From assembly GCF_003233655.1 (NCBI RefSeq), contig NZ_CP029829.1, positions 480,978-544,977 on the forward strand: 64,000 nucleotides of DNA, given 5' to 3'. The notes under the pieces were generated by a model, which saw only the letters and a list, made by a program, of their open reading frames with translations, was not told the origin of the DNA and made no database searches. Position 1 is the stretch's first letter. The number at the start of each line of letters is the position of its first letter. Made by a program: the position numbers and the translations under genes. The stretch is from Azospirillum ramasamyi. Its GTDB lineage: Bacteria; Pseudomonadota; Alphaproteobacteria; Azospirillales; Azospirillaceae. Below, one piece after another: positions 36,618-45,808 of this stretch.

Positions 36618-38675
36618 TTACGGCCCGATCTGGGTCATCAGGGAGGTGCCGGCGAGATGTCCCGCCGGCTTCAGCGACGCGACCCGCAGCAGGGGCTTGG
36701 CGTTTCCGACCGCCTCGACCTGCAGCGCACGTTCTTCGGCCGGAGCCTCATAGACGGCGGGGAGGGCGATGGTGATGCGGGTTCCCTGGCCGGGCTCGCT
36801 CGCCACTTCGATGTCCCCGCCCAGCATCGCGGTGTAATGGCCGACCAGGGTCAGGCCGAGCCCGGCGCCGCGCGGCTTGCCCTGCCCACGGGTGGCCACC
36901 GCGCCGGTGCCGGTCGCCTGGACGAAGGGCTGGAACAGCCGGCCGGTCTGCGCGCTGGGAAATCCGCGGCCGGTATCCGCCACGATGAAGCGATACCAGC
37001 TGGCGCCGTTGCGCTCCACCTTCTCCGCCGACAGGGTGACGGTGCCCTCCTGCGTGAACTTGCACGCGTTGTCGAGCAGGTTCAGCAGGGTCTGCCGCAC
37101 CTTGGTGAAGTCGGAATGCATCTGCCCGAGCCCGGCGGGGGCGGACAGTTCCAGCGCGTTGCCGTAGAGGTCGGCGGCGGGCATCGACCGCTCGCGCGCT
37201 TCGGTCAGCAGCCGGTTGATGTCGAAGTCCTGCAGGCAGACGTCCATCGCCCCGGCTTCGATCTTCGCGTAGTCCAGCAGCGCATCGACCAGGGTGGTCA
37301 GCTGTTCCCCGGTCCATTGGATATGCTCGACGTCGGTCGCCAGTTCGTCGACGCCCAGCCGGTGCAGGTCGGTCATCAGCGACTGGCTGGCGTTGACGAT
37401 CTCGGTCAGCGGTCCATGCAGTTCCTGTCCCATATTGACCAGGAAATCGCTCTTGGCCTGGCTTGCGGCCTCGGCCATCGCCTTCTCGCGCTGAAGGCGG
37501 GTGTGCTCCACCTCCGCCTCCCGGCGTTCGCGTTCGGTTTCCTCGGCGGTGGCGCGCAGCGTTTCGACCGCGCGGGCCATGGCAGCGATCTCGTCCTGAC
37601 CGGACAGCGCCGGCAGCGTCACGTCGGTGCGGCCGGCGGCCAGCGCCGTTACCGCCGTCGCCATGGTCTTCATCGGCGCGGCCACGCTGCGCTGGACCAG
37701 CCAGAGCGCCAGCAGCCCGGCCAGCAGGATCGCACCGCCGATCCACAGCGCGACTGTGGTGTAGCCCGACAGCCCGTCGGCCAGCGTGCCGCGCAGGGCC
37801 TGGGTCCGCGCCTCCGCCCGGCGGCGGATCTCGCCCAGATTGGCGGCGATGCCGGCGGCGTTGGCGGCCATCGCCTCGGCGCGCAGGGTGTCCTCTTCGG
37901 CGACGGCCGTTTCGATCGCGGTCAGCACGCCGCCGGCCTTGGACAGCAACGCCGTAACCTCGTCGATCGCCTGCTTGGTGCCGGGAACCCACAGGTAGCG
38001 GTTCATCTCGGCCAGCCGGTCGCGGGCGACGGCGAGTTGGGCGCGCATCGCCTCCGCATCCTGCGGATCGCGGCGGTCGATGTAGCGGGTCAGGTGGTCC
38101 TGCATCAGCAGCACGGCGATGGCGGCGTCGCTGGCCAAAGCGGTCGAATCGACGCCGCCCGCACCCTTGAGCTGGTCCAGCTTCCGGCGGGTCTGGGCGA
38201 CCATCGGTTCAAGCACGCCGGCGATCTGGTCGCTGCGCTCGCCGCGCAGGGCGATCACCGTCTGCACTGCGGCCCAATAATCGTCGAACGCCGACTTGGC
38301 CTTGTCGACGCCCTGCCGGTCCGCGATCTCCACCGCACCCTTGGACAAGGTGTCGAGCCGCTCGCGCAGCGTATCGTGCCGCCAGGAGGCGTCGAGCAGG
38401 CTCTGGTCGTCGCCGTAGGTCAGATGGTCGCGCACGGCGACCTCAAGGTCGCGCAGGCTGACATCGGCGTCCGCCGCCGCCTGAGACAGGTCGGCGCGGC
38501 CGGAGAAGGCGCCGATGTCGCGCTGGGCCGCATAAAACCAGCCGAAGCCGACCAGCGCCAGCAGGACCACGAGCCCGAGCGCGATACCGAAGCCCGTGCT
38601 GACCCGGGCCGACACGGTCATGTCGCGGAATCGGGTCCGGCGGCCGCTCCGGGACAGAATGCCGTTCCGCTTCAC
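36618..38675 (-). CDS. membrane sensor histidine-kinase-like protein lacking the phosphoacceptor histidine
   Basis: 685 residues from a GTG with GGGAG just upstream; an ATG at 38621 lacks a ribosome site. Layout: membrane helix about 22-45, a helical periplasmic sensor of about 250 residues, second helix about 308-330, HAMP, a coiled coil, the dimerisation/phosphoacceptor region and an ATPase domain. The ATPase is intact: NLLDNACKFT (Asn536), DTGRGF and GAGLGL. The H-box, normally SHELRTPL, reads MGQELHGPL, with Gln417 (codon CAG at 37425-37427) in place of histidine. It may act as a pseudokinase or scaffold. No response regulator is adjacent. Confidence 0.9.
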   Translation of the reverse strand: MKRNGILSRSGRRTRFRDMTVSARVSTGFGIALGLVVLLALVGFGWFYAAQRDIGAFSGRADLSQAAADADVSLRDLEVAVRDHLTYGDDQSLLDASWRHDTLRERLDTLSKGAVEIADRQGVDKAKSAFDDYWAAVQTVIALRGERSDQIAGVLEPMVAQTRRKLDQLKGAGGVDSTALASDAAIAVLLMQDHLTRYIDRRDPQDAEAMRAQLAVARDRLAEMNRYLWVPGTKQAIDEVTALLSKAGGVLTAIETAVAEEDTLRAEAMAANAAGIAANLGEIRRRAEARTQALRGTLADGLSGYTTVALWIGGAILLAGLLALWLVQRSVAAPMKTMATAVTALAAGRTDVTLPALSGQDEIAAMARAVETLRATAEETERERREAEVEHTRLQREKAMAEAASQAKSDFLVNMGQELHGPLTEIVNASQSLMTDLHRLGVDELATDVEHIQWTGEQLTTLVDALLDYAKIEAGAMDVCLQDFDINRLLTEARERSMPAADLYGNALELSAPAGLGQMHSDFTKVRQTLLNLLDNACKFTQEGTVTLSAEKVERNGASWYRFIVADTGRGFPSAQTGRLFQPFVQATGTGAVATRGQGKPRGAGLGLTLVGHYTAMLGGDIEVASEPGQGTRITIALPAVYEAPAEERALQVEAVGNAKPLLRVASLKPAGHLAGTSLMTQIGP

Positions 38676-38813: not shown

Positions 38814-39644
38814 TCAGGAAATATCTCCGGAGGTGAAGGCATAGGCGTGCATGCCCAGGCTGCCATGCTCGAATCCGGCATGCAGCCGCTCGGTCCGCGG
38901 CTTTGGGCCGGCGGCGCCGAACGCCACCGGCAGCGGCAGGAAATGCTCGTCGCTGGGATGGGCGTGGCGGGAATCCGGGCTTGCGGTCAACCAATCGCCG
39001 AGGGCCTGGCTGTCCCCGGCCTCCAGCGTCCGGTCCAACCAGCCGGCGAAGCCGGTCGCCCAGGCCGCGGTGCTGGTCCCGCCGAAACGGAATTCCCGCA
39101 GATTGTGGACCGCGCCGCCGCTGGCCAGGATCAGCACCCCGTCCCGCCGCAGCGATTCCAGCCGCCGCCCCAGCGCGATGTGGTCGGCGGCGCTGCGGCG
39201 GGGCATCACCGACAGCTGGGCCACCGGGATATCGGCCTTCGGATACATCAGCATCAGCGGCACCCAGGCGCCATGGTCCAGGCCTTGCGCCGGGTCGATG
39301 GCCGCGCCGGTCAATTCGGCGACCCGCTCCGCCAGCGCCGGAGCGCCGGGGGCGGGATAGCGCATGCGGTAAAGCGCGTCGGGAAAGCCTTGGAAGTCGT
39401 GGATGGTTTCCGGCGCCTCGGCGCCGCTGACCGCGGCGTCGCGGGTCGTCCAGTGGGCGGAAACCGCGAGGATGGCGCTCGGCCGGCCGAGCCTGCGACC
39501 GAGCCCGGCCAGGAAGTCGCGGCCGGCGCTGGTCTCCAGGATCAGCGTGGGGGCGCCGTGGGAGACGAAGACCGACGGGAACAGGGCGGCGGAGGGTTGG
39601 GCAAAGGAGGACTGGGCAAGGGAGGACTGGGCGAGAGAGGGCAT
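38814..39644 (-). CDS. LigB/DODA-type extradiol ring-cleavage dioxygenase family protein
   Basis: 276 residues from MPSLAQSS. Conserved parts: PSVFVSHGAPTLIL near the start, VSAHWTT near residue 62 (metal-ligand histidine), LDHGAWVPL near residue 120 and ASGGAVHNLR near residue 180. This resembles DODA, the zinc- or iron-dependent class III extradiol dioxygenases, which open catechol rings; E. coli YgiD is a relative. Substrate unknown. Its first residues contain three five-residue repeats (LAQSS, LAQSS, FAQPS) coded by 15-bp tandem repeats. It stands alone after a terminator that ends the atp operon. Confidence 0.87.
   Translation of the reverse strand: MPSLAQSSLAQSSFAQPSAALFPSVFVSHGAPTLILETSAGRDFLAGLGRRLGRPSAILAVSAHWTTRDAAVSGAEAPETIHDFQGFPDALYRMRYPAPGAPALAERVAELTGAAIDPAQGLDHGAWVPLMLMYPKADIPVAQLSVMPRRSAADHIALGRRLESLRRDGVLILASGGAVHNLREFRFGGTSTAAWATGFAGWLDRTLEAGDSQALGDWLTASPDSRHAHPSDEHFLPLPVAFGAAGPKPRTERLHAGFEHGSLGMHAYAFTSGDIS
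39591..39635. repeat. in-frame 15-bp tandem repeats at the start of the dioxygenase gene
   Basis: Three 15-bp units code for LAQSS, LAQSS and FAQPS immediately after the initial MPS. Because the unit is a multiple of three, copy number changes would lengthen or shorten the tail without a frameshift. The repeat sits before the conserved fold begins. Confidence 0.7.
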
Positions 39645-39705
39645 GGACGAACGGAACTCCGGCCGGGCAATGGGGGAGGGCGGCGACGGTCCCATTCCAG
39701 CAAAG

Positions 39706-39735
39706 AAAAACCCCGGCGCCTAGGCCGGGGTTTTT
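39706..39735. terminator. bidirectional intrinsic terminator after the atp operon
   Basis: AAAAACCCCGGC...GCCGGGG-type stem with A5 and T5 flanks (AAAAACCCCGG paired with CCGGGGTTTTT). On the minus strand it follows atpF by about 85 bp and precedes the dioxygenase gene, so it ends the ATP synthase Fo transcript. Confidence 0.85.
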
Positions 39736-39820
39736 CGAAACTCCGTTGTTCACACCGCAACAATGGTCAGGAAAACCCTTGCCGCTGCGGAACCCGGTTA
39801 CTCCAATCGGTGGGGACCGA

Positions 39821-40300
39821 TCAGTGCAGGTGCTTCGGCAACTCGCTGATCGACTGCTCGATCAGCTTGTCGGCCTGCATCGGCGGCAGGCCGCCGGACA
39901 GGACGCGCTTGCTGGCGCCGATGGCGATGTCGACCGTCAGGTTGCGGACCTCGGCCAGCGCCGAGGCTTCCGCCTGGGCGATGCGGTCCATGGCCTGGGC
40001 CTCGCGACGCTTCAGCGACGCTTCCAGCTCGGTGCCGGCCTGGGCCCGCAGGCGGGCGGCCTCCTCGCGGGCGTAGGCCAGAACGGCCTCCGCTTCCTTC
40101 TGGGCGTCGGCCAGACGGCGCTGGTAGCCGTTCAGCAGAGCCTGGGCGTCCTTGTGCAGACGCTCGGCTTCGTCCAGTTCGGCACGGACACGCTCGGCGC
40201 GGCCGTCGAGAGCGGTGCCGATGGCAGCCGACGCCTTCTTCCAGACCAGGGCCACGAAGATGACGAAGGCAGCCAGGACCCAAAATTCAGCTGTGTTCAT
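39821..40300 (-). CDS. atpF: ATP synthase Fo subunit b
   Basis: 159 residues: one N-terminal membrane helix (EFWVLAAFVIFVALVW) then a long charged, Ala-rich helix that forms the peripheral stalk with b' and contacts F1. It overlaps the preceding b' gene by 4 bp (ATGA), so translation is coupled. The two-b arrangement (b plus b') is characteristic of alphaproteobacteria, cyanobacteria and plastids. It is the last gene of the Fo operon; the F1 genes are not in the window, in keeping with the split F-ATPase of this class. Confidence 0.95.
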   Translation of the reverse strand: MNTAEFWVLAAFVIFVALVWKKASAAIGTALDGRAERVRAELDEAERLHKDAQALLNGYQRRLADAQKEAEAVLAYAREEAARLRAQAGTELEASLKRREAQAMDRIAQAEASALAEVRNLTVDIAIGASKRVLSGGLPPMQADKLIEQSISELPKHLH

Positions 40301-40947
40301 CCCCGGCGCTCCTCAAGCACGGCCGCGACAGCGGCGTCCGCCTGGGCCTGATCGACATCGACACCGGCCAGACGGTCGGCGATATCGCGGACGATCCCGG
40401 TGGATTCGGCGCGGATGTTGGCCAGAGCCTGGTCCTTCGCCGTGGCGATGGCCGCCTCGGCGCTGTGCAGACGCTCCGCGATGTCGGCGGTCAGCTGGGC
40501 CTGGCGGGCCTGGTTGTTCGCCTCGATATCGGCGCTGGCCTGGGCGATGACGCCCTGGGCCTCGCTGCGGGCGCCGGCGAGGGACTTCTCGACCTGGGCC
40601 AGAATGGCCTCGGCCTCTTCCTTCAACTGGGCCGCCTTGGCGAGATCGCGCGAGATGCGCTCCTGCCGCGCTTCAATAACCTCTGCCACGCGCGGAAGCG
40701 CCTTCTTGGACATGAGGTAATAGAGAACGCCGAAGGTCAGAGCCAGCCAGAAGATCTGGGTCGGGAAATTGGCGGGATTGAGCTGCGGCAGGCCGCCGGA
40801 AGCGTGCTCGCCGCCTTGCGCCGCGTTCGGAGCGTGCTCCGCCGCGGCCGCCAGGACGGTGCTGGCCATCGTGGTGAGGGTGACGAGCGAGGCGCCCGCC
40901 ACTCCCGACCAGCGGGCCAGCCGGCCTTTGGCCAACAGGTTCGGCAT
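40297..40947 (-). CDS. ATP synthase Fo subunit b'
   Basis: 216 residues, longer at the N terminus than subunit b, with a signal-like Ala-rich stretch (residues about 12-40). The membrane helix follows at NPANFPTQIFWLALTFGVLYYLMS and then a long helical stalk with the GVIAQASADIEANNQAR segment. It pairs with subunit b as the stator. It lies 94 bp after atpE, a gap that holds two stable hairpins, and overlaps atpF. Confidence 0.93.
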   Translation of the reverse strand: MPNLLAKGRLARWSGVAGASLVTLTTMASTVLAAAAEHAPNAAQGGEHASGGLPQLNPANFPTQIFWLALTFGVLYYLMSKKALPRVAEVIEARQERISRDLAKAAQLKEEAEAILAQVEKSLAGARSEAQGVIAQASADIEANNQARQAQLTADIAERLHSAEAAIATAKDQALANIRAESTGIVRDIADRLAGVDVDQAQADAAVAAVLEERRG

Positions 40948-40970
40948 GATCGGTCCCCCTAGGCAAAGGA

Positions 40971-41037
40971 GCGGCGCCGAAACTTCGCTTAAGAAGCCCG
41001 GCGCCGCGTCAGAGCTGATTTTCTGAGAAGCCGCTCT
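40971..41037 (-). promoter_or_regulatory. two intercistronic hairpins between atpE and the b' gene
   Basis: Reading along the minus strand, a hairpin at 41037-41011 (AGAGC / GCTCT) begins five bases after the atpE stop, then a stronger one at 41007-40971 (GCGGCGCCG / CGGCGCCGC, loop about 19). No T-run follows. Such structures commonly protect the upstream message or thin out transcription, which would raise subunit c relative to b and b'. Confidence 0.55.
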
Positions 41038-41041
41038 GGCC

Positions 41042-41269
41042 TTAGGCGAACAGGATCAGGAAGGCGATCAGCAGAGCGAACAGCGCGACGGCTTCCGTCA
41101 GCGCGAAGCCCAGAATGCCGATCGGGAAGACCTTGGGCTGAACGGCCGGGTTGCGGGCGATCGAGCCGATCAGGGTCGAGAAGATGTTGCCGATACCCAG
41201 GCCGACACCAGCGAGGGCGAATGTGACGGCCAGACCGGCTCCGACGTACTTGGCGGCTTCAGCTTCCAT
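41042..41269 (-). CDS. atpE: ATP synthase Fo subunit c
   Basis: 75 residues from [10 protein letters not shown]; an upstream in-frame ATG (41278) is placed too close to the ribosome site AGAGGA and the known Rhodospirillum c subunit starts MDAEAAK. Two membrane helices form a hairpin; the polar loop contains ARNPAVQPK. The proton-binding glutamate lies in the second helix ([17 protein letters not shown]). Many copies make the rotor ring. It lies between atpB and the hairpin-containing gap before the b' gene. Confidence 0.96.
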
Positions 41270-41340
41270 GTTACTCATTCCTCTAGGTAAGGGTGAACTG
41301 GTTGAAAAGGACGAACTGTGTTCCGTGTCGACGCCGGAGC

Positions 41341-42084
41341 TTAGTGCAGTTCCAGCGCGTCGCGGATGTAGAGGCAGGTCAGGACCGAGAAGACGTAGGC
41401 TTGCAGGAACGCCACCAGGAACTCGAAACCGATCAGCGCGACGTTGATCGCCAGCGGGACGAGGCCGGTGACGAAGCCCAGCGCGCCGAAGCCGCTGATC
41501 ATCATGACCGTGAAGCCGGCAAAGACCTTCAGCATCGTGTGACCGGCCATCATGTTGGCGAACAGTCGGATCGAGAGGCTGACGGGGCGCATCACGAAGG
41601 AGATCACCTCGATCGGGATCAGGATCGGGGCGAGGGCCTTGGGAGCGCCGTGCGGCATGAAGAACGTGAAGAAATGCAGGCCGTGCTTCATCAGCGCCAG
41701 CAGCGTCACGAACACGAACACCGTGGCAGCCAGGGCGAAGGTGACGATGATGTGGCTGGTGAAGGTGAAGGTGTAGGGGATCATGCCGAGCATGTTGCCG
41801 AACAGCACGAACATGAAGATCGAGAACACGAACGGGAAATAGGGCTTGGCGTCGTGGCCGGCGTTGTCGCGCACCAGGTTCGCGACGAACTCGTAGAACA
41901 TCTCGGCCAGCGCCTGCAGGCGGCCGGGAACCATCGACTTGTTCGCCATGCCCATGACCAGCAGGGCGTAGATCGCCGCCACGGCCACGACCATGAAGAA
42001 GGCCGAGTTCGTGAAGGACACGTCGTAGCCGCCGAGCACGATCTGGAACAACGGGTTGATTTGGAACTGGTGCAGCGGATCCAA
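41341..42084 (-). CDS. atpB: ATP synthase Fo subunit a
   Basis: 247 residues with five to six membrane helices. The functional arginine is in the conserved [14 protein letters not shown] segment near residue 170, and [22 protein letters not shown] is the typical final helix pair. It forms the proton half-channels facing the c ring. It starts 12 bp after the AtpI gene end and precedes atpE by 71 bp. Confidence 0.96.
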
Positions 42085-42096
42085 GGTCGTCCTCGC

Positions 42097-42465
42097 TCAG
42101 TGTGCGTCGCCGTCTTGGCGCTCGTTGTCGTCCCCAGTGGGCCGGCGGTAGCCGGCGGCGATGCCTAAGCCGTTGACGGCCCGGTAGACGTTCAGGACTC
42201 CCGCCGCGGCCCCCAGGAAGAACATGACGATCAGTCCCCAGGGCGCGGTGCCGAGCCAACGGTCGAGCAGAAGCCCGCCGCCGACGCCGACGATCATGGC
42301 AGCAACAAGCTCCGTCCCGATACGCCAGGCGGTGGCGAGGGCGCCCTGCGGCGGACGGTGGTATTTGCTACCGGGTCCGCCAGACCAGCCGCGTTGTCCC
42401 TCGCGCGCCTTACGCAACCGGGCCTCGAGGTCACCCAAAGGATCGGGGGGCGTTTTGTTGTCCAT
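42097..42465 (-). CDS. atpI: AtpI/AtpZ-type ATP synthase assembly protein
   Basis: 122 residues from [10 protein letters not shown] with GAGAGG just before. A soluble charged N terminus of about 50 residues is followed by two membrane helices ([20 protein letters not shown] and [19 protein letters not shown]). AtpI helps assemble the c ring or stabilise Fo; AtpZ partners it in some bacteria. First gene of the Fo operon (I-B-E-b'-F). Confidence 0.9.
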
Positions 42466-42651
42466 ACCGCCTCTCAATCACCCTTGGCACTCGTTGGCTC
42501 GCAGCCATGCGAAAGCGGCGAGACCATACGGGCGGGGCGCTACCCTGTCAAGTCGCAAAACCTGCGGTCTAAGTCTTTGAAATGATTGGGAAAGAAAGGA
42601 AATATCACGGATTTTGCCGCGCTGCGGCGCGTTGTCCCGCTCCAGCATGCG

Positions 42652-43404: not shown

Positions 43405-45591
43405 TTACGCCGCCCGTCTGCCCCCGGATCGGGCGGCTGTTTCGGCGGCGAGATGCTCGCCGATCCGCTTGTCGGCGCGCTGGATGTGTTCGAACAGCCA
43501 TTCGCGGATGAGGGCCAGCAATTCGTCGGCCACGGAGTCGCCGGCATTCAGGCGGCGGCGCAGATCGCCGGCCCGGGTGAGCAGCGCTTCGTGCTGGGCC
43601 TTGTGGGCCTTGGCGTCGGGATAGCCGCACCGGTCCATCAGCCGCTCCTCCTGCTCGAAATGCAGGACGGTGTAGGCCAGCAGGCGGCCGATCGCCTCGC
43701 CCAGGGCCCGGCGCTCGCCGCCTCCCGTGGAGGCCTTCGCCCGGCGCGCGAGGGAGGCCGCCTCGTTCATCAGCGCGATCAGGATCATGTGGTCGGTGTC
43801 GATTTCCTCCTCGCCGACCGCCAGGCTGTCGGTCCAGGGCATGAAGGCTTCCGACCCGGCCGGCGGGGTGTCGTGGAGCGCTGCGAGCGGCGCCGCGTTG
43901 ATCGCCTCGACATTGACCAGGAAGGCGTCGACCATCGCGCGCAGCCCCTCCGCCTGCCGCGACAGCCCGCCGGCGGCGTCCAGCAGCGCGCCGGCCGACC
44001 GTTCGGTCTCCAGCGCCGCGTCCGACACGGCGTCGACGCTGGTGGAGACCTGCCGGGTGCCCTCCGCCGCCTCTCCGGCGCTGCGGGCGATCTCGCCGGT
44101 CGCCGCACCCTGTTGCTGGACGGCGGCGGCGATGGAGGTGCCGATCTCGTCGCTGCGGGCGACGATGGTGCCGATCTCGCGGATGGCGGCGACGGCGGTC
44201 CGCGTGGCCTCCTGCACCTCGGCGATGTGCCGGGCGATCTCCTCGGTGGCATTGGCGGTCTGGTTGGCCAGGGTCTTCACCTCGCCGGCCACCACGGCGA
44301 AGCCCTTGCCCATCTCGCCGGCCCGCGCCGCCTCGATGGTGGCGTTCAGAGCCAGGAGATTGGTCTGGCTCGCGATTCCGGCGATCATGTCGGCGACCTC
44401 GCCGATCTTCCGGGCGGCCTGGCCCAGCCCGTCGATCCGCTCGCCCGCCTTGTGCGAGGCCTCCACCGCCTGGGTGGAGATGGCCGACGAGGTCACCACC
44501 TGATGCCCGATCGCCGCGATGGAGCCGGTCAGCTGCTCCGCCGCCGAGGCGACGGTCTGCACGCTGGAGGAGGCCTGCTGCGAGGCGCCGGCGACGGAGG
44601 TCGCCTCGCGCCGGTTGCGGTCCGCGGTGGCGGACAGGGCGCGGGCGGTGGTCTCCAGCGTGCCGACGGCGGCGCCGACGGTGCGGATGGTTTCCGCGAT
44701 GGTGGCGTCGAAGCGGTCGGTCAGCCGCTTCAGCGCCTGGGCGCGCTGCTCGCCCACGCGATGCTCGATCTTCTGCCGCTCCCAATGGCCGGCAAGATCG
44801 ATCTGCTGGACGCGGAAGACCTCGACCGTGCGGGCCATGGCGCCGATCTCGTCGCCGCGGCCGAGGCCGGGTACGGCGACCGCGCTGTTGCCGCCGGCCA
44901 GCTCCTGCATGACCCTGCCCAGGTCGCCGAGCGGCCGGACGATGGCCCGGCTGACCAGCAGCGCCAGAAGCCCGGCGGTCAGCGCGATCAGCAGCCCGGT
45001 GCCGGCCAGCCGCCACGCGGCGCGGCTGAAGGCGTCGTCGACGTCGTCGATGTAGATGCCCGACCCGACCAGCCAGCCCCACGGGGCGAATCCCTTGACG
45101 TAGGACAGCTTCGCCACCGGTTCCGCCGAGCCGGGCTGCGGCCAGAGGTAATCGACGAATCCGGCGCCCTCGGCCTTCACCACGCGCACGAAATCCTGGA
45201 ACAGCAGCTTGCCGTTGGGGTCGGCGTTGCGCGACACGTCGGTGCCGTCGAGTTCCGGCCTGATCGGGTGCATGACCATGCGCGGGTGGAGGTCGGTGAC
45301 GAAGAAATACTCGTCACCGTCATGGCGCAGCGCCTTCAGCGCGGCCTTGGCCGCTTCCTGCGCCTCGGCGCGGGAGAGGGCGCCGGTCCGCTCGCGCGCC
45401 TCGAAATGGGCGATCAGGCCGTGGGCGATCTCCACCACGCTGCGGGTCTTGTCGCGGCGATCGGTCATCATCTCGGCACGCAGACCGATGAGGCTGACCA
45501 CGGCGATCAGAACCAGCCCGACACCGGACGCCGCCAGGATCGCTGCGATCTTGCCACGGATGCTGATGCGTTCGAACACGGCAACGGTCAT
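43405..45591 (-). CDS. chemoreceptor with Cache sensor and C-terminal hemerythrin domain
   Basis: 728 residues from [10 protein letters not shown] (a longer in-frame start is not conserved). Order: membrane helix about 13-35; single-Cache periplasmic domain about 40-190 ([26 protein letters not shown], given in part); second helix near 205-225; HAMP; signalling coiled coil with [20 protein letters not shown] near residue 425; and from about 585 a hemerythrin domain with [22 protein letters not shown] and LFEHIQRAD. The di-iron ligands all seem present, so it may sense O2, NO or iron. Fusions like this are known, for example DcrH of Desulfovibrio, but there the detail differs. Confidence 0.92.
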
Positions 45592-45808
45592 GGCTGCGGC
45601 CCCCTGGCGATGTCCTGTGAAATTTTGGGGACATTTGCCGGGGCCGGCTCGGCCGTCAAGCCTAATTGCTCGTATATCCCACGTTTCGGTCAGCTGAATG
45701 TCATAAACGCAACCATAGCGGGGTGTGAGAGGCGAGGGCGCCGGCACCAGGGGGGCGGGAGGCGCCGTATCGACGCCTCCCGGACAACGTTGCGGCGAAC
45801 GGCCGCGG

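Follow-up and report, generated by a model that had tools for sequence, protein, structure and literature searches.

How does a sensor kinase signal when its ATP site is complete and the histidine that should accept phosphate is a glutamine? The question is raised by a gene on the minus strand of a 64,000-nucleotide stretch of Azospirillum ramasamyi (contig NZ_CP029829.1), which is referred to here as the window. The gene encodes a 685-residue protein, the window kinase, whose H-box reads NMGQELHGPL. Gln417 occupies the site of the phosphoacceptor histidine (the H position), and His420 (H+3) occupies the site of the arginine in HELRTP. Among relatives of the protein, position 417 is either Gln or His, and His420 never varies. 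Judged from these sequences and by analogy, the window kinase may be a pseudo-histidine kinase that, like DivL of Caulobacter, uses His420 to dock a partner; this reading carries about even confidence. The gene and its parts are as follows.

36618..38675, minus strand: entire sensor kinase gene, 685 residues (GTG start at 38675, stop codon 36620-36618)
38529..38591, minus strand: first membrane helix, residues ~29-49, a hydrophobic run found by eye (helix 21-87 in the structure model)
37806..38495, minus strand: helical sensor region, residues 61-290, with the fold of the McpS (helical bimodular, HBM) ligand-binding domain
37698..37760, minus strand: second membrane helix, residues ~306-326, found by eye
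37548..37697, minus strand: HAMP, residues 327-376 (Pfam)
37251..37457, minus strand: HisKA (DHp), residues 407-475 (Pfam, 30.3 bits against a cut-off of 26.9)
37425..37427, minus strand: Gln417 codon CAG, phosphoacceptor position, Gln or His across relatives
37416..37418, minus strand: His420 codon CAT, H+3, invariant across relatives
36756..37109, minus strand: HATPase_c, residues 523-640 (Pfam, 82 bits), ATP-site motifs intact

The observation made in the original prediction is sound. Retranslation and Pfam bear out the coordinates, Gln417 as CAG at 37427-37425 and the intact ATP motifs. NLLDNACKFT, DTGRGF and GAGLGL are all present, and the N, G1, F and G2 motifs of the ATP site are all found. 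Glu418 supplies the acidic H+1 residue, and Gly421 stands at H+4, where Thr or Asn, the phosphatase residue, is expected. A plus-strand reading of 36618..38675 was rejected, as it belongs to another frame. That the register is shifted, with His420 being the canonical histidine, was ruled out, because Pro422 stays at H+5 and HisKA aligns across all 66 positions. Some database versions of the protein start at Met19 and have 667 residues. NCBIfam gave 63 models that match the window kinase, and none of the 25 matches listed lies above its own cut-off.

Gln417 and His420 across Azospirillum

The H-box is exceptional among the kinases of the same genome. With the Pfam HisKA model, 92 matches were obtained, of which 89 score above the family cut-off; all 92 were translated. 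The acceptor site is His in 91 (87 scored by script; four His rows and the window Gln row by eye), and the window kinase is the sole Gln. None of the other 91 features His at H+3, and at that position all 44 outside kinases in the 120-row listing of the protein search have Arg. As a control, the genome's nearest other kinase was followed across the genus and reads SHEIRTP[LM] in all 30 best loci; these come from 30 of the 45 Azospirillum genomes, and the last six are 54-57% identical and possibly not orthologues.

A search of ~5.8 billion proteins returned 76 relatives (P0003-P0078, including four fragments), after which the scores fall steeply. The 120 matches listed by a profile search for more relatives contain one additional fragment (P0123) but no further relative of full length. 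The source names that bear an organism are all Azospirillum except for one alphaproteobacterial metagenome-assembled genome. Additionally, 82 genomes of the taxonomic family were searched. The orthologue is present in 44 of 45 Azospirillum genomes; G030, an assembly of 1,140 contigs, gave no match at E 1e-60. At the same threshold 3 of 37 genomes of other genera match, in the kinase part only. The set of 109 rows used below consists of 72 database and 37 genomic proteins, near-duplicates included. Outside it stand the database fragments P0021 (His at 417) and P0029, P0072 and P0073 (Gln), all four with His420, and two pieces of a split gene, L074 (Gln, with His420) and L075 (site absent).

Position 417 is readable in 44 of 45 genomic rows and is Gln in 27, always encoded by CAG, and His in 17 (CAC in 10, CAT in 7). 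The 109 rows feature 67 Gln, 42 His and no third residue. These counts rule out a sequencing error or an isolated mutation, and a genus with His throughout at this position, which the original prediction had allowed for, is not what is observed. Gln417 is widespread, but it is not fixed. The strain B21 orthologue (L011) is 94% identical to the window protein and carries His at 417. At least 12 switches between Gln and His are required on a quick LG+G4 tree, built with the H-box columns excluded and with 33 of its 106 forks open; the counts carry no direction. So many interconversions indicate that this is not one lineage having lost its His. Nine independent Gln/His pairs lie on well-supported branches, and the odds that nine random single-base amino-acid changes all stay within Gln/His are ~1e-5 or less, a codon-neighbour estimate with no fitted model. 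The confinement of these changes indicates that site 417 is not drifting and is held to two residues able to hydrogen-bond.

His420 is invariant in 109/109 rows, as are Val413, Pro422, Leu433, Leu437, His438, Gln453, Trp454 and Glu457 of the DHp domain. H+1 is acidic in 100 of 109 rows (59/67 Gln rows and 41/42 His rows) and is Gln or Leu in the other 9, and H+4 is Gly, Ala, Arg, Ser or Gln, with Thr or Asn in none. The accessible part of PMC3510030 reports, for CrdS and further HisKA kinases tested with it, that phosphatase activity requires Thr or Asn at H+4 and kinase activity an acid at H+1. The ATP-site residues N536, D567, G569, G571, F581, G603, G605 and G607 never vary, and conservation of the ATPase domain is alike in Gln rows (0.811) and His rows (0.817). 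The pseudokinase idea of the original prediction gains support from this equal retention and from Gln being the commoner residue in the genus. The ratio of nonsynonymous to synonymous substitution rates (dN/dS) in 11 close pairs is 0-0.07 in the DHp domain, 0-0.26 in the ATPase domain and 0.04-0.22 in the sensor region. A pseudogene is ruled out by these low ratios and by stop-to-stop frames that span the gene in 43 of 44 genomes. In the 44th (G020) the gene is split across two contig ends, and the single TGA seen in five genomic matches reflects a match extending beyond the gene end. Judged from sequence, the most telling fact is the interchange of Gln and His at the acceptor position while His420 is fixed.

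Proposed docking through His420 and its alternatives

According to the part of PMC4211667 that is accessible, DivL is without kinase and phosphatase activity, and its R553A substitution (H+3) abolishes binding of DivK~P, whereas Y550H at the H position does not. A fixed H+3, an H position free between two residues and a missing phosphatase residue are the mirror of these mutants, which points to a docking pseudokinase. In the proposed mechanism, a ligand would be sensed by the McpS-like helical domain and the signal would be relayed via HAMP and a coiled coil to the DHp/ATPase core, where ATP, once bound, would set the conformation. Through His420, the DHp helices would dock a partner, either a response regulator or another kinase, and switch it without passing on phosphate of their own. 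Residue 417 would receive no phosphate. Its side chain, Gln or His, would instead form hydrogen bonds, and this shared ability would account for why the two exchange repeatedly and no other residue appears.

Several points weigh against docking. Pure docking alone leaves the fully conserved ATP site unexplained, and the same is true of the mostly acidic H+1, a kinase residue. The strict restriction to Gln and His shows that site 417 still matters. The docking residue of DivL is Arg, whereas H+3 in relatives of the window kinase is always His, and when its own genome is searched with the DivL core, the window kinase ranks only 21st of 69. The response regulator proposed below as a partner adjoins the kinase gene in just 1 of 31 loci. 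Finally, the structure model has a predicted template-modelling score (pTM) of 0.44, so that the placing of the domains is not fixed by it, and it cannot show how they are placed. The conserved ATP site is the strongest of these points against a pure scaffold, and it keeps alive two alternatives in which ATP would be used for phosphorylation.

The first of these, which is unlikely, is that the intact ATPase domain phosphorylates the histidine of a paired kinase, so that residue 417 need not accept phosphate itself. CheA3 and CheA4 of Rhodobacter form such a donor-acceptor pair. Invariant ATP-site residues beside a variable acceptor are what this arrangement would leave, and there is a precedent in the accessible part of PMC9491836, where an evolved ChrS pseudokinase of Corynebacterium glutamicum signals with HrrS as a heterodimer and its own His is dispensable. 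However, H+1 would then be free as well, yet it is mostly kept, and no partner kinase is known; in the 30 loci that retain a window neighbour, none adjoins the gene by neighbour and receiver searches, in which kinase genes were not sought.

It is quite improbable that the His lineages have an orthodox kinase and that the Gln members have lost this function and persist for residual roles. Loss of the acid at H+1 is nearly confined to Gln rows (8/67 versus 1/42), and H+4 Gly is almost fixed in His rows (39/42). Both trends run in the direction expected of an orthodox kinase; however, with relatedness taken into account, neither covariation with 417 reaches significance (median p values of 0.25 and 0.5), and the H+4 phosphatase residue is absent from His rows too. 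Additionally, Gln is the commoner residue, Gln rows are conserved as well as His rows, and both states are found among near relatives, with the 12 or more changes given above.

The most doubtful alternative, raised in the original prediction, is that His420, one helix turn past the usual position, is itself phosphorylated with 417 as a hydrogen-bonding helper; its invariance beside an intact ATP site, whichever residue is at 417, and the absence of His at H+3 from the other 91 HisKA matches of the genome speak for this reading, but it is made less likely by the residue after His420, which is Gly, Ala, Arg, Ser or Gln and never the acid required beside a HisKA acceptor (PMC3510030, accessible part), by Glu418 (at -2 from His420) being Gln or Leu in 9/109 rows, and by the docking role of its DivL counterpart. 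If true, HisKA chemistry would gain a new subclass.

One genus therefore holds natural Gln and His versions of one protein, some more than 90% identical, which share the ATP motifs and the invariant His. Such pairs would reveal whether a phosphoacceptor is needed, what the ATP site does without one and whether docking alone carries the signal. If docking through His420 is correct, they would be a natural test case for the change from kinase to pseudokinase.

Gene neighbourhood and a candidate partner

The original prediction noted that no response regulator gene adjoins the kinase gene, and this holds for the whole window, in which six receiver queries gave no receiver-domain match at E 1e-3. 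The neighbourhood was examined in 31 loci from 29 genomes (L054 and L069 lie on one contig, and L074 and L075 belong to one genome). At least one window neighbour is retained in 30 of the 31, the retained genes being F0 ATP synthase genes (by eye), a LigB-type dioxygenase, a class II aldolase and formate dehydrogenase genes (by eye). No receiver gene was found in these 30 loci with the six queries at E 1e-4. Since the kinase gene keeps its surroundings while just 1 of the 31 loci yielded a receiver gene, a constantly adjacent partner was ruled out.

The exception is Azospirillum halopraeferens (L071), in which a hybrid kinase, a single-domain response regulator and then the sensor kinase gene lie on one strand, with ~145 bases between the regulator and the GTG start of the sensor kinase. 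The regulator has an orthologue in 45/45 genomes, the best matches outside A. halopraeferens being 67-73% identical, and in the window's own genome it lies at G000:C1:755395-755796, ~236 kb from the sensor kinase gene. As a lead, this regulator is a candidate partner of the sensor kinase. Directly after it, 4 of 45 genomes encode a second, unrelated degenerate hybrid kinase with HisKA, HATPase_c, receiver and Hpt domains:

L209:8412-9983, plus strand: second degenerate hybrid kinase, with homologues in L223, L224 and L225

The H position of this kinase is Gln in two of the four and His without the H+1 acid in the other two. Together with the A. halopraeferens locus, these few cases suggest that the single-domain regulator may work with degenerate HisKA proteins.

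Other features of the neighbourhood were also observed. The F0 ATP synthase genes (by eye) and the LigB-type dioxygenase precede the kinase gene on the same strand (window 38814-42477, minus strand), and this order is retained in most loci examined; the dioxygenase was not found in L054, L069 and L070. A chemoreceptor with a Cache sensor, HAMP, an MCP signalling domain and a C-terminal hemerythrin domain is encoded near the kinase (window 43405-45747, minus strand) and may be a receptor linked to oxygen or iron. In A. halopraeferens, a long frame rich in GGxGxD-like repeats (L071:971-3499, minus strand) lies near the relocated sensor gene and resembles, by eye, a calcium-binding repeat protein.

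Comparison with known systems

In fold, the sensor region corresponds to the McpS ligand-binding domain (PDB 2yfb and 2yfa; succinate and malate complexes), although the identity is 13-14% and McpS is a chemoreceptor. The HBM Pfam model, PF16591, is not among the matches of the window protein at E 1; among the 76 relatives, precomputed matches to it exist for P0032, P0033 and P0034. The GacS and RetS kinase cores (PDB 7z8n, 6dk7 and 7n0e) are among the closest known systems; unlike the window kinase, GacS and RetS retain the acceptor His. To our knowledge, few pseudo-histidine kinases are well studied, DivL being one example. Among the open-licence papers listed, the titles and abstract openings gave no HisKA family that switches between Gln and His and no Azospirillum pseudokinase, which does not prove their absence.

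The kinase core resembles DivL (PDB 4q20) as closely as any solved structure, with ~30% identity over the core. Both proteins feature a HisKA/HATPase_c core without the acceptor His (Tyr550 in DivL, Gln417 in the window kinase), and in both H+3 is singled out, as the docking residue Arg553 in DivL and as the invariant His420 in the window kinase. The acceptor position, however, is Gln or His in 109/109 rows and never Tyr, and the window kinase has an McpS-like helical sensor and HAMP instead of PAS sensor domains; no PAS domain is found among its Pfam matches to E 1. A rank of 21st among 69 means that the resemblance is no special kinship, and this rank, the other residues at H and H+3 and the lack of a PAS match rule out a DivL orthologue. 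Ranked first among the DivL-core matches of this genome is G000:C1:374396-375106 (L214), which is 43% identical, lies in a 662-residue frame with the H-box NHELRTPL and is a candidate DivL- or PleC-type kinase.

The ChrS pseudokinase is alike in signalling without its own acceptor His, via a paralogous kinase (PMC9491836, accessible part). As described there, it arose in the laboratory by a frameshift that deleted the ATPase domain, whereas the window kinase keeps this domain and is natural and found across its genus.
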